Positions 13,713-25,105 of a stretch of 64,000 nt of DNA are shown one piece after another. Source of the DNA: Sandaracinus amylolyticus (GTDB taxonomy: Bacteria; Myxococcota_A; Polyangia; Polyangiales; Sandaracinaceae). Numbering within the stretch: position 1 is the first letter of the stretch; every line of letters begins with the position of its first letter. The notes beneath the pieces were generated by a model. The model was given only the letters and a program-made list of their open reading frames with translations. It had not been told where the DNA came from and did no database searches. The translations under genes and the position numbers were made by a program. Location of the stretch: NCBI RefSeq assembly GCF_021631985.1, contig NZ_CP070225.1, positions 4,216,001-4,280,000 on the forward strand, in the 5' to 3' direction.

Positions 13713-16258
13713 CTACGCGCCGCCGAACGAGCGACCCCCGAGGTTCGCGACGAGCGAGATCAGCTTCGAGAGATCCACCGGCTTCTCGACGTGCCGCTGG
13801 AACCCCGCCGAGAACGCTCGCTCCACGTCCTCGCTGCGCGCGTACGCGGTCAGCGCGACCGCCGGGGTGCGCCCGCCGCGCGACGCCGGGAGCTTGCGGA
13901 TCGCGCGGATCAGCGAGTACCCGTCGCGATCCGGCATGCCGATGTCGCTCACCAGCACGTCGGGGCACGCCGCCTCGAAGAGCGAGAGCGCCTCGCCCGC
14001 GCTCGACGCGCTGCGGACCTTCGCGCCACGCGCGACGAGCACCTCGGCCACGAGCGCGCGTGCATCCTCCTCGTCGTCGACCACGAGGACGTCGAGCCCG
14101 TCGAGCCGCACGTCGGGCGTTCCGTGCAGCACGACCGGCTCGCGATCGAGCCCGGTGACGCCGTGCGGCATCGTGGGACGCGAGCCGATCGGGAGCTCCA
14201 CGACGAACGTCGCGCCGCGCCCCATCCCCTCGCTCTTCGCGCGCACCGTCCCGCCGTGCGCGGCCGCGAGCTGCTTCACGATCGCGAGCCCGAGGCCGAG
14301 CCCACCGTGACGCCGCGTCGTCGATCCATCGGCCTGGCGGAACGGGTCGAACACGCGGGGCAGGAACGCGGGCTCGATGCCCTGGCCGCTGTCGATCACC
14401 TCGATGCACGCGACCTCGCCCTGACGCTTCGCGTGCAGCGCGACGCGCCCACCGCGCGGCGTGAACTTGATCGCGTTGGCGAGCAGGTTCCAGACGATCT
14501 GCTGGAGGCGCTCGGGGTCGCCGACGATCGTCACGTCCTGCGCGACGTCGACGTCGAGCGTGATCTCCTTCGTCTCCGCGCCCGGCCGCACCGACTCGAC
14601 CGCCGCGGAGAGCGGATCGGCGAGGTGCAGCGCGCGCGGCTCGAGACGCAGCTGGCCGCTGATGATGCGCGAGACGTCGAGCACGTCCTCGATGATCCGC
14701 GCCTGCGAGCGCGCGTTGCGCTCGATGATCGAGAGCGCGCGATCGAGCTCCGCGGGCGCCTGGGCGCGCGCGATCGCGGTCCATCCGATGATCGCGTTGA
14801 GCGGCGTGCGCAGCTCGTGCGAGACGGTCGCGAGGAACTCGTCCTTCGCGCGGTTCGCGACCTCCGCCTCCTGTCGCGCCGCGCGCTCGCTCTCGAGCAG
14901 GCGCGCGCGCTCGGACTGGTGGTGCTCGAGGTCCTGCCTCGCGCGCACCTGCGCGGTCACGTCGACCGCGAAGACGAGCAGCTCGTCGGTCGCGCCGATC
15001 GGCGTCCGCAGTCGCTGGGCCGTCACGTCGAGATAGCGGGTATCGGGCGGCTCGCCGGCCCTCCAGTCGACGACCAGCGGCAGCTCGCGAGAGCTCACCA
15101 TCTCACCCGAGCGGTACACGTGATCGAGCACCGCGAGCGCGGCCCCGGTCACGCCGAGCGTCGCGAGACGCACGCCCGCACGCCCCGCGTCGTTGAAGAA
15201 GTCCTTGAACGCCGGGTTCGCGAATTCGCACTGGTGATCGGGCCCGCGCGTGATCGCGATCAGCGCCGGCGACGCCTCGAGCACGTCGCGGAGGCGCGTG
15301 CGCTCCTCGTACTTCGCGACCGCCCACGACGCGCGCTCCGCGACCGCGAGGAAGAGCCGCTTGTCGCGCTGCGCGAACGCGCCGGTCTCGCTCGATGCGA
15401 CGAACGCGACGCCGAGCACCTCGCCGTCGTTCGTCAGTGGGACGCCGAAGATCGCGCGGGTGTCGCCGGTGCGGAACCACGGGCTCGCGACGATCGGCGA
15501 GCTCGCCGCTTCGCCGATCTCCCAGGGCTGTCCGGTCGCCGCGATGCGGCCCGCGAAGCCCTCGCCGATGCGCTCCGACGCGAGCGAGTGATCGTGCTGC
15601 GCGATGCGCCCGACCGCCGCGCGGAGGCGTAGATCGTCGCGCTGGCGCAGCAGGATCGCCGCCGAGTCCACCTCGTCGGTCGCGCCCGCGAAGATGTCGA
15701 GTAGCTCGTGGAGGAACGCGTCGAGATCGGAGCGCTCGAGCACCGCGGTCGCGATGCGCTCGAACGCGACGAGCCTGCGCACCGCTTCGTCGCGCTCCTC
15801 GGTGCGCAGCGCGAGCTGCGCGCGACGCACCTCTTCGCGCTGGCGGAAGAGGTCGACGAAGGCCTTCACCCGCGCGCGCAGGATGTCGGCGTCGAAGGGC
15901 TTCGTCATGTAGTCCGCGGCGCCCTTCGCGTAGCCACGCCGCGCGTAGAGCTCGTCGCGATGGATCGCCGTGAGGAAGATGATCGGCACCTCGCGGCCGT
16001 GCTCGAGCTTCCGGATGTGCTCGGCCACTTCGAAGCCGTCCATCTCGGGCATCTGCGCGTCGAGCAGCACGACCGCGAAGGGCTCGTTCGTCACGCGCTC
16101 GAGCGCCTCCCGCCCGTTGCGCGCCTCGACGAGGCGCACGCCGAGCGGGCTCAGCACCGCCGAGAGCGCGATCAGGTTCGCGGGGGTGTCGTCCACCAGC
16201 AGGACGCTGGGGCGGATCATGGCGAGCGGGTCGCCGTTGTTGGCGCGGAGGTCGGGCA

Positions 16259-16259
<1 letters not shown>
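13713..16259 (-). CDS. Hybrid histidine kinase: REC-GAF-PAS-HisKA-HATPase-REC
   Basis: About 848 residues, soluble. Domains in order: a receiver (residues 15-133, phospho-Asp in VVLLDAQMPEMDG), a GAF domain (about 173-320), a PAS domain (about 322-437), HisKA with [16 protein letters not shown] (about 470) carrying the phospho-His, HATPase with NLLANAIKFTPRGG and GLGLAIVKQL (about 583-690), and a C-terminal receiver with VLVSDIGMPDRDG (about 720-840). An N-terminal receiver ahead of a kinase suggests it takes input from another kinase. It starts with ATG at 16259 overlapping the upstream kinase's TGA as TGATG (a GTG at 16262 is also possible), so the two are translationally coupled and likely work in one relay. 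Confidence 0.92.
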
Positions 16260-21892
<5,633 letters not shown>

Positions 21893-22060
21893 CGGCTCCC
21901 TCCGAGTGACGCCCGGGCAGGCTGCGGAGAGCGTCCTCCGTCCTGCTCACGGGCTCCGAGGCGAGGGACCTAGCTCCCGCATCTGCGGCCACAACCCCCG
22001 CCGGGGCGCGGGCGCACGCCCACAGGTCAGGGGGGTTGTGACCCGGTTTCGAGTGCCCAG

Positions 22061-22534
22061 ATGGGCGACACCTGTAGCAACGCGCATCACCCCGCGGTCC
22101 TCGGCTCCGCCCCGACTGCCCGCACACCACCGGCAGCAGCTCTCCCAGTGGCATCCCAGAGCGGCATTCCCGACGACGTTTTCCGGTTCCTCGTCGAGCA
22201 CATCGTGTCGGTCGAGCAGCTGGAGATCCTCCTTCTGCTGCGGGCCCAGGCCGGGCGCGACTGGAATGCCGAGGAGGTCGCGAAGGAGCTGCGCGTCGCG
22301 GCGATCTCCGCGGGCAACCGGCTCACCGACCTCGCGGCGCGCGGCTTGCTGTCCGAGGTGAGCCCAGGGCGCTTCCGCTACGCGCCCGGAGATCCTGCGA
22401 TGCAGGCAGCGGTCGAGGGGCTCGCGAAGGTCTACCCGGAGCGCCGGGTGAGCGTCATCGAGATCATCTTCTCGAAGCCGAACGACGTCATCCGGACGTT
22501 CGCGGACGCGTTCAAGCTGCGGAGGGACAAGTGA
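22061..22534 (+). CDS. Winged-helix-like DNA-binding protein
   Basis: About 157 residues; the ATG at 22061 is the likely start, though the first 35 residues are unstructured. The core (EHIVSVEQLEILLLLRAQ through AEEVAKELRVAAISAGNRLTDLAARGLLSE to GRFRYAP) reads as a winged helix with the recognition helix in AAISAGNRLTDL. The C-terminus VIEIIFSKPNDVIRTFADAFKLR is amphipathic. It is the first gene of a three-gene operon with two small DUF5985-like membrane proteins, overlapping the second by GTGA. The operon is divergent from the poly-HAMP kinase across about 170 bp, so it may regulate or belong to that pathway. Confidence 0.75.
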   Translation: MGDTCSNAHHPAVLGSAPTARTPPAAALPVASQSGIPDDVFRFLVEHIVSVEQLEILLLLRAQAGRDWNAEEVAKELRVAAISAGNRLTDLAARGLLSEVSPGRFRYAPGDPAMQAAVEGLAKVYPERRVSVIEIIFSKPNDVIRTFADAFKLRRDK

Positions 22535-22800
22535 CGTCGATCGTGCCGGTCGTCGTGTACCTGCTGTGCGCCGCGACGAGCCTGATCTGCGCGGTCCTGC
22601 TCGTGCGCGGGTATCGCGCGAGCCGCACGCGCCTCCTGCTCTGGAGCAGCATCTGCTTCGTGAGCCTCGCGCTGAACAACATCCTGCTCTTCGTCGATTT
22701 CCTGCTCGGGCCCAACTACGACCTGTCGCTGTGGCGCACCGCGATCGCCGCGCTCGGGATGGCGATGTTGGTGTACGGACTGGTGTGGGAGGCGCGATGA
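22531..22800 (+). CDS. Small membrane protein, DUF5985-like (first of pair)
   Basis: An 89-residue protein with three hydrophobic segments (about 4-24, 35-55 and 67-85), starting at a GTG that overlaps the upstream stop codon (GTGA). The sequence pattern LICAVLLVRGYRASRTRLLLWSS with a small basic loop after the first helix, then FVSLALNNILLFVD, matches a small uncharacterised family that I know as DUF5985. It has a paralogue directly downstream, sharing the R-x-S-R-x-R/F-loop and length. Function unknown; the pair probably forms a heteromeric membrane complex. Confidence 0.7.
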   Translation: MTSIVPVVVYLLCAATSLICAVLLVRGYRASRTRLLLWSSICFVSLALNNILLFVDFLLGPNYDLSLWRTAIAALGMAMLVYGLVWEAR

Positions 22801-23066
22801 TCGAGCACCTGCGCGATCTGCTGTACGGCGCGCTCACGATGGCGAGCATCGTCGCCTCGCTCGCGTTCCTGCGCTTCTGGCGCGAGAGCCGCGATCGCTT
22901 CTTCGTGATGTTCGCGGCGGCGTTCGCGCTGCTCGCGGTGAACTGGGTCGCGGTCGCGTTCGTCCCGGCCGACTACGAGGCGCGCGCGCTCGTGTACCTC
23001 GTCCGCCTCAGCGCGTTCCTGATCATCATCGGCGCGATCGTCGACAAGAACCGCGCGTCGCAGTGA
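22797..23066 (+). CDS. Small membrane protein, DUF5985-like (second of pair)
   Basis: An 89-residue protein with three hydrophobic segments, starting at ATG overlapping the upstream stop (ATGA). It shares with the preceding protein the plan helix, basic loop (FWRESRDRFFVMF), helix, loop, helix (VRLSAFLIIIGAIVDKN). Tandem paralogues of one small membrane family in an operon with a winged-helix protein suggest a sensing or signalling unit, but this is inference. It ends 26 bp before the FUSC gene, which may share the transcript. Confidence 0.7.
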   Translation: MIEHLRDLLYGALTMASIVASLAFLRFWRESRDRFFVMFAAAFALLAVNWVAVAFVPADYEARALVYLVRLSAFLIIIGAIVDKNRASQ

Positions 23067-23092
23067 CCCCGCGAGCGCGCTAAGCCCCGGGC

Positions 23093-25105
23093 GTGCTCGC
23101 TCCGAGGTGGAACGCGCTGCGCGCGTGGGTGCCGGCACCGGTGCTCGCGATGGCGCCGGACCTCCAGAAAGGACTGCGCGCCGCGATCGCGACGCTGGGC
23201 CCCTTCCTGCTCGTCGACGTGCTGCACGACGAGGCGCTCGCGTGGACCGCGCTCGGCGGATGGCTGGGCACGCTGGCCGATCCCGGCGGGACGCGCGCCG
23301 CGCGGGCGCAGCTCGTGGTGGCGTTCGGGGCGCTCGGCGCGCTGGCGATCGCGATCGCCGAGCCCGCCGCGGGGCATGCCGGGATCGCCGCGGTCACGCT
23401 CGGCGTCGGGTGCTTCGGTGCGGCGCTGCTCGGAGCCCTCGGCGCGCCCGGCGCGACGCTCGGGACGCTGCTCGCGATCGTGATCGCGATCGCCGTCGTG
23501 CGGCCGAGCGCGACGCCGCTGCGGGACGCGGCGTTCTTCGCGGCGGGCTCCGCGCAGGCGCTGCTGCTCTCGACGGTCGTGTGGCCGATCGGGACGCACG
23601 TGCCGCTGCGACGCGCGGTCGCGCGGGTGCAGGACGCGCTCGCGGCCTACGCGGACGCGCTGCGCGAAGCGGGGCTCGCGAGCACGCCCGACGGAGACGC
23701 GTGGTGGTCGACGATCGCGCGCACCCATCGCCGCGCGTGTCGCGCGGCGATCGAGGACGCGCGCGCGATCGCGCTGGCGCTGCGGGCGCGGCGCGCGGGC
23801 ACGATGGCGATCGGCAGCGGCCTGCGCGCGCTGCTCGGCACGGCGGAGCAGGAGCTCGCGCTGCTCGTCACGCTCGGCGAGGAGATCGAAGCGGCGCCGC
23901 TCGACGCGCGCGGCCCGATCGCGGCGTCGCTCGCGCGCGCCGCCGAGACCAACCGCGCGATCGCGTCGTCGGTGGCGCGCGGCCTCGCGCCGGAGGTGCC
24001 GCCACCCGCGAGCACGACGACGCGGCTCGACGAGCTGCTGCACGACGTGGCCGAGATCGCGACCACCATCGATCGCCCGCGCGGCGCTGCCGATCCCGAT
24101 CTCGGCGTGCTGCCCGGAGGGCGCGGGGTGCGCGCGACGCTGATCGCGTTCCGGGATGCGCTCTCGCCGCGATCGATCGTGCTGCGCCACGCGGTGCGGG
24201 TGTCGTGCGCCGCGGCGCTCGCGGCGATCATCGGGCGCTACGTGTCGCCCGCGCACGCGCACTGGGTCGCGGTCACGACGATCGTCGTGCTGCAGCCCTA
24301 CCCCGGCGCGACGTGGAAGCGCGCGCTCGAGCGCGTCGCCGGCAGCGTTCTCGGCAGCGTCGTCGCGGTCGCGATCTCGCTCGCGACCCACGATCCGCGG
24401 GTGATCGGCGCGATCATGTTCCCGCTCTCCGTCGCGGCGGTCGCGACGCGCCCGCGCAGCTACCGCCTCTTCACGTTCTTCATCACGCCCGTGTTCGTGT
24501 TGCTCGCGGAGCAGTACCCGGGCGACTGGCACACCGCGCTCGCGCGCGCCGCGGACGCCGCGCTCGGTGGTCTCATCGGCGTGGTCGCCGCGTTCGCGAT
24601 CGCCCCGTCGTGGGAGCGCGAGCGCATGCCCGACGTGCTCGCGAGCACGGTGCGCGCCGTCGCGACCTACGCGCGCGCCACCTTCGACGTGTGGGTCGCG
24701 CCGCGCGAGACGAAGCACTCGCTCGGCGAGGCGCGGCGCACCGTCGCGATCGCGCTCGCGAACGCCGAGACCGCCCTCGAGCGGCTCCTCGCAGAGCCGC
24801 GGCGCGACGTTCGCGAGGCCTCGCTCCCGCTCGACGTCGTGACCTACGCGCGCCGCATCTCGGGCGCGATGACCGCGCTCGCCAGCACCGCGCTCGATCA
24901 TCCGCCGCCGCCCCAATCGGTCGGCGCGATCGCCGACTACGTCGTCACGTCGCTCGAGCGCATCGCGAGCGCGCTCGAAGCGCGCGAGCCGATCCCCGCG
25001 CTCCCGCCCGCGCCGAGCGTCGATCCCGCGCTCCCCGAGCCGATCCGCGCGCGCCTCGCGTCGGCCCTGCGGCACGTCGAGCTCCTCGCCGCATCGGGGA
25101 CGTGA
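23093..25105 (+). CDS. FUSC-family membrane transporter (aromatic acid exporter-like)
   Basis: A 670-residue protein with the two-block FUSC plan: an N-terminal membrane block (residues about 25-185 with several hydrophobic helices), a long soluble helical region (about 185-370), a second membrane block (about 375-520, with AHWVAVTTIVVLQPYPGATWKRALERVAGSVLG) and a soluble C-terminus. The motif ATWKRALERxxGSVLG is the hallmark of this family, whose members include AaeB and YccS-type exporters of aromatic acids. The cargo is unknown. Start taken at GTG 23093; a downstream ATG near residue 20 would also leave the first helix intact. Confidence 0.85.
   Translation: MLAPRWNALRAWVPAPVLAMAPDLQKGLRAAIATLGPFLLVDVLHDEALAWTALGGWLGTLADPGGTRAARAQLVVAFGALGALAIAIAEPAAGHAGIAAVTLGVGCFGAALLGALGAPGATLGTLLAIVIAIAVVRPSATPLRDAAFFAAGSAQALLLSTVVWPIGTHVPLRRAVARVQDALAAYADALREAGLASTPDGDAWWSTIARTHRRACRAAIEDARAIALALRARRAGTMAIGSGLRALLGTAEQELALLVTLGEEIEAAPLDARGPIAASLARAAETNRAIASSVARGLAPEVPPPASTTTRLDELLHDVAEIATTIDRPRGAADPDLGVLPGGRGVRATLIAFRDALSPRSIVLRHAVRVSCAAALAAIIGRYVSPAHAHWVAVTTIVVLQPYPGATWKRALERVAGSVLGSVVAVAISLATHDPRVIGAIMFPLSVAAVATRPRSYRLFTFFITPVFVLLAEQYPGDWHTALARAADAALGGLIGVVAAFAIAPSWERERMPDVLASTVRAVATYARATFDVWVAPRETKHSLGEARRTVAIALANAETALERLLAEPRRDVREASLPLDVVTYARRISGAMTALASTALDHPPPPQSVGAIADYVVTSLERIASALEAREPIPALPPAPSVDPALPEPIRARLASALRHVELLAASGT

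Follow-up and report, generated by a model that had tools for sequence, protein, structure and literature searches.

At the locus described here, a short operon with two genes for small membrane proteins faces the gene for a large soluble histidine kinase, which raises the question of whether the two sides belong to one signalling unit and what such a unit might sense. The window that we analysed is a stretch of 64,000 nucleotides (G000:C1:4216001-4280000) from a complete, 11-Mb myxobacterial genome whose only DUF5985 genes are the two in this operon. The original prediction had described three tightly overlapped genes with GTGA and ATGA junctions, and both 4-nt overlaps were located, at 22531-22534 between the genes for the winged-helix protein (WH) and DUF5985-A and at 22797-22800 between those for DUF5985-A and DUF5985-B (A and B below). 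Two other details had to be revised. The gap between kinase and triplet had been put at about 170 bp. In an alignment with the congeneric genome G177, which also has indels upstream, neither ATG 22061 nor the frame behind it is conserved, but GTG 22148 and the codons downstream of it are; GTG 22148 rather than ATG 22061 is therefore the probable start of the WH gene. With this start, the divergent gap is probably about 255 bp. The kinase side had been read as one gene, but a second hybrid kinase gene that overlaps the first by 4 nt had been missed (Table 1). A FUSC-family transporter gene lies at 23093-25105 on the same strand as the triplet, 27 bp past DUF5985-B; a FUSC cluster also adjoins the triplet in Novosphingobium, where it is convergent, and such a neighbour is not general.

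Table 1. Features of the locus, in positions of the window
Feature	Position	Strand	Evidence
WH, winged-helix protein, 128 aa	22148..22534	+	AF2 model, pLDDT 88; profile matches to PDB chains of ArsR/MarR fold; probable start from the G177 alignment
DUF5985-A, three-TM membrane protein, 89 aa	22531..22800	+	PF19447, E 1e-28; TM prediction; AF2 model, pLDDT 92
DUF5985-B, three-TM paralogue, 89 aa, subfamily distinct from A	22797..23066	+	PF19447, E 9.5e-24; A/B identities
Poly-HAMP hybrid histidine kinase, 12 HAMP-GAF-HisKA-HATPase-REC, no TM	16259..21892	-	Pfam domains; hydropathy
Second hybrid histidine kinase, REC-GAF-PAS-HisKA-HATPase-REC	13713..16262	-	Pfam domains; like the neighbour in other genomes
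Divergent intergenic region between kinase pair and triplet	21893..22147		
Inverted repeat CACAACCCCC-N31-GGGGGTTGTG, weak candidate operator	21990..22040		

The proteins themselves largely agree with what had been predicted. The divergent kinase is a poly-HAMP protein of 1877 aa, with 12 matches to HAMP where more than five N-terminal copies define group III kinases, and with GAF, HisKA, HATPase and REC domains in the same chain; no segment of it exceeded the threshold for a TM helix in a hydropathy scan. Both membrane proteins have three predicted TM segments and match PF19447 far above its curated cut-off of 27.3 bits (99.9 bits for A and 84.0 for B), as expected of the paralogous three-helix pair that had been proposed, and the AF2 model of A consists of three long helices. 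The first loop, between TM1 and TM2, is positive in both, so under the positive-inside rule A and B would share one topology, with this loop and the C-termini in the cytoplasm. The family is indeed little known: Pfam lists DUF5985 without a function, and a search of open literature comprising 5.39 million papers found no text on DUF5985 or PF19447.

To learn whether the three genes belong together, we scanned 84,980 species genomes with a profile of DUF5985-A, which gave 278 relatives, and kept the best 80 of these, from about 15 phyla; WH, A and B at the 80 loci were called with profiles built in this analysis. At 77 of these best 80 of 278 loci, WH, A and B follow one another in the same order and on the same strand, with gaps that are mostly between -8 and +12 nt. 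The three exceptions are one locus at a contig edge and two in which WH was initially undetected; WH was recovered with an improved profile in one of them (L045), while none was found in the other (L040) even with that profile. WH-DUF5985-A-DUF5985-B is thus a conserved three-gene unit, nearly invariant in at least 14 bacterial phyla and far beyond chance, and the distances of the three proteins are intercorrelated (0.50-0.65 among ten diverged representatives). A and B are only 16-20% identical to each other, while each type retains 43-54% identity between distant genomes and across phyla, which indicates an old duplicated pair that has been kept together and not a recent tandem copy. Within the Myxococcota, 15 of 377 genomes have DUF5985 above the cut-off. 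There are also some singular neighbourhoods: plasmid p2 of Azospirillum brasilense (L014) has a WH gene without adjacent DUF5985 genes, beside a TrkH potassium uptake gene, and a gene for an MscS-type mechanosensitive channel lies near the triplet at L023, L033 and L040, Pfam-checked only in L023.

We then asked how often the triplet has a poly-HAMP kinase within 10 kb, counting flanks as full when each side extends for 5 kb or more (55 of the 80 loci). Such a kinase was found at 26 of the best 80 of 278 loci (21 of the 55 with full flanks), or about one third to two fifths of those sampled, against about 0.4 expected from the two poly-HAMP genes of the window genome. The linkage occurs in Myxococcota, in Alpha-, Beta- and Gammaproteobacteria and in one Acidobacteriota MAG, and a second hybrid kinase usually accompanies the first. 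The arrangement varies: the kinase is divergent in the window and in Caulobacter, Sphingomonas, Steroidobacter and Sphingobium, upstream on the same strand in Polyangium, Azospirillum, Nitrospirillum and Hyalangium, and downstream on the same strand in Hyphomicrobium, while on alphaproteobacterial plasmids all five genes run in one direction (poly-HAMP kinase, second hybrid kinase, WH, A, B). The triplet is 12-80 nt from the kinase pair in several lineages. The original prediction had named an absence of conserved linkage in other genomes as evidence against it; since the linkage recurs across loci and gene orders, this is not what the survey found.

The association is nevertheless not uniform. 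Three Polyangium-group genomes (G339, G367, G369) have two detected poly-HAMP kinases each (HAMP_2 model, E up to 1e-6), and six of the six adjoin a triplet, but in G347 and G213 triplets and poly-HAMP kinases are at separate places, and G267 has a triplet with no poly-HAMP match in the genome. The triplet-less poly-HAMP kinases of G347 and G213 (L149, L150, L151) also adjoin a second hybrid kinase, so the kinase pair also occurs where no triplet is linked to it. The window genome's own second poly-HAMP kinase (about 643000-657400 of G000:C1; L146, L147) has 8 HAMP repeats and is followed by a hybrid kinase; it has no triplet and is about 6.5 kb from one of three otsA genes. Across the full set of 37 linked loci, the distances of kinase and triplet were correlated (r 0.85-0.88), but this correlation vanished on thinning to ten representatives and therefore reflects near-duplicates. 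As the kinase distances do not track those of the triplet after thinning, the association was probably assembled repeatedly. A search for natural DUF5985-kinase fusions found none, and two weak matches in frames of 558 and 588 aa were to unrelated membrane proteins.

A second partner of the triplet is otsA, the gene for trehalose-6-phosphate synthase, whose identity was Pfam-checked on four examples. It lies near the triplet at 13 of the best 80 of 278 loci (12 of the 55 with full flanks), which is 16-22% of the sample against an expectation of about 0.5, and at four further Myxococcota loci; the two partners occur together at none of the 80. At two Bradyrhizobium loci, in the record 'Frankia' RB7 and in Hyphomicrobium, otsA follows the triplet on the same strand after 0-111 nt; it precedes the triplet by 133 nt in a Verrucomicrobiota MAG and is convergent at 25 nt in G368, while some other copies are 2-9 kb away. 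The triplet/otsA locus of 'Frankia sp. RB7' (L070) groups with Bradyrhizobium in the tree, and this record is probably mislabelled or contaminated. Near a triplet in G365, an otsBA-like fusion frame (L136:2769-5270) opens with a stretch like the start of WH (E 7e-5), which is possibly the remnant of a second WH gene that preceded otsBA.

Roughly 40-50% of the sampled loci, again the best 80 of 278, have neither partner nearby. No third recurrent neighbour stands out at these loci, and no antiporter or lysis partner recurs, which suggests that the module can work without a poly-HAMP kinase. In a tree built from 101 concatenated triplets, both labels are clustered, and well-supported branches require at least nine changes of the poly-HAMP label and at least seven of the otsA label, so the partnerships have been gained or lost repeatedly. 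The triplet is a coherent autonomous module that has repeatedly been joined to one of two partners, and not part of one fixed five-gene system. The proposal of a single signalling unit thus stands for the intact triplet and its conserved linkage, but not as WH, membrane pair and one kinase, given that the triplet is self-standing across the best 80 of 278 relatives. Similarly, the suggestion of an undescribed combination agrees with the lack of any description of DUF5985, but the kinase is usually paired and otsA is an alternative to it.

What, then, does the module do? Our main reading, to which we would give a probability of about 0.45, is that the triplet is a conserved signalling module in which A and B are the membrane sensor and WH is their cytosolic partner, coupled at this locus to a soluble kinase pair and responding to an osmotic or desiccation type of stress. 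Always encoded together, A and B would most likely form a small hetero-oligomeric sensor, to which WH, acting as a local regulator, may dock by its C-terminal tail. The kinase pair, which is of the group III or AskB-AskC type and lacks its own membrane sensor, would receive its envelope input from A and B, much as the original prediction had the small membrane pair sense and the kinase relay; the two hybrid kinases would then form a phosphorelay with WH or another factor as the output. Elsewhere, the same module may be coupled directly to otsA. We favour osmotic or desiccation-type stress as the common theme because both partners independently point to it, and, from its repeated position beside giant soluble stress-type kinases or otsA, the triplet is probably a stress-sensing module that has not been described before. 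A broader version, in which it would be a widespread, undescribed plug-in membrane sensor of osmotic or envelope stress, is possible but somewhat doubtful; in some lineages it would give soluble group III-type kinases the membrane input that they lack, and in others it would drive trehalose synthesis (otsA) directly. Either would be a first functional lead for DUF5985.

The role of WH is where the strongest competing explanation enters. The predicted winged helix stood as a fold, since the AF2 model shows one with additional C-terminal helices and a profile match links it to HlyU/ArsR-type PDB chains at 9e-7, the nearest being ArsR/MarR-type proteins; no Pfam family, however, matched it above the cut-off. 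MarR_2 gave 12.4 bits where 27 are needed, the curated cut-offs of MarR (PF12802/PF01047) were not reached, and only 15 of 72 relatives matched MarR_2 at E up to 0.01. WH therefore shares the winged-helix core of MarR/ArsR regulators such as HlyU, but it falls below their curated Pfam cut-offs and has an extra conserved C-terminal tail, FADAF-x-[LI]-[RK]-K. This tail is its most conserved segment and is poorly ordered in the model, while conservation is lowest in the recognition helix. The helix-turn-helix region is slightly acidic on average (-0.7) and not basic, which makes DNA binding by WH uncertain. Such a pattern of conservation fits a fixed protein partner combined with varied DNA targets or with none.

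The intergenic region gave little sign of a conserved target. The inverted repeat CACAACCCCC-N31-GGGGGTTGTG occurs once in the genome and its arms are kept in G177, but it was equalled by 6 of 100 shuffles and is absent from other divergent loci, and we regard it as a weak candidate that does not qualify as a conserved operator. No sigma-70 promoters or terminators were found in 21850-23150. Because the ots genes of Bradyrhizobium diazoefficiens act under EcfG (PMC8092242), we also searched the DNA in front of the alphaproteobacterial triplets for a sigma-EcfG motif, which was present in 1 of 27 cases and not enriched.

WH might also be read as a protein adaptor instead of a transcription factor, one that links A and B to the kinases or to OtsA in a module that would work post-translationally. 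The acidic helix-turn-helix region, the variable recognition helix, the conserved tail and the absence of a visible conserved operator all speak for this, and in Myxococcus xanthus the Ask kinases bind partner proteins directly, both one another and the regulators MrpC and FruA (PMC7643160). We consider it unlikely all the same, as the fold and the best PDB matches are those of DNA-binding ArsR/MarR-type regulators, and a regulator that acts on varied targets would also be expected to vary in its recognition helix.

A reading of the triplet as an independent cassette for stress protection or regulation, which accumulates in stress-gene neighbourhoods and is not directly coupled to the kinases, is less probable still. 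The many loci that stand alone, the two different partners and the uncoupled distances of kinase and triplet after thinning would suit such a cassette, but its adjacency to the kinase pair or to a downstream otsA is very tight and resembles a transcription unit in several lineages, it recurs in several gene orders, and it extends to every detected poly-HAMP kinase in the three Polyangium-group genomes.

The sequence of A has no match in the PDB and Foldseek returned nothing below E 0.8 for it; its model superposes on NuoK/MrpC-type three-helix subunits with Z of about 10 (rmsd 2.2-3.0 over 81-85 residues), a likeness that we treat as uninformative since unrelated helical bundles reach comparable values and a Z under about 13 may mean a mere common arrangement. 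Among DUF5985-B proteins, 16 of 65 weakly match the membrane sensor domain MASE3 (best E 3.8e-5), which would fit a sensor role although the similarity may be compositional, and B also weakly matches Phage_holin_2. That A and B are small NuoK/Mrp-like or holin-like transport or pore subunits, with WH as a local repressor and the kinase as an unrelated neighbour, could appeal to the superposition and the holin match, but given the low Z, the Foldseek result and the lack of a recurrent antiporter or lysis partner where kinase and otsA are both missing, we think it very improbable.

Our preferred reading, a membrane sensor coupled here to a soluble kinase pair, can be set beside several known systems. 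A and B are clear members of Pfam DUF5985 (PF19447), but that entry carries no function, whereas we find an obligate A-B pairing and a WH partner. In fungi, kinases of group III serve the osmotic HOG pathway (e.g. PMC3846623). Nik1, Os-1 and TcsC resemble the window kinase in being poly-HAMP proteins with HisKA-HATPase-REC and no TM helix, but the fungal output runs via Ypd1 and Hog1. To our knowledge, these fungal kinases have no small membrane partner genes. The osmotic-stress system OsaA/OsaB of Streptomyces coelicolor likewise has a soluble hybrid kinase with many HAMP domains, the 1829-aa OsaA with more than ten (PMC9739842), but OsaB is a response regulator with REC and a coiled coil; none lies beside the window kinase, which adjoins a complete hybrid kinase that has HisKA and HATPase. 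M. xanthus AskB is a poly-HAMP hybrid kinase with another hybrid kinase, AskC, encoded immediately downstream, and the Ask kinases mediate responses to ambruticin and glycerol (PMC7643160). The window shares with AskB-AskC (and AskA) the large soluble poly-HAMP hybrid kinase and the adjoining downstream second one, but no WH-DUF5985 triplet is described there, and the likeness is one of gene arrangement. The authors of that study discussed that an osmosensing membrane receptor would be needed to pass the signal on and identified no Sln1-like protein (PMC7643160). Soluble poly-HAMP kinases such as Nik1, OsaA and Ask are tied to osmotic stress, and the triplet is a candidate for their missing membrane component.
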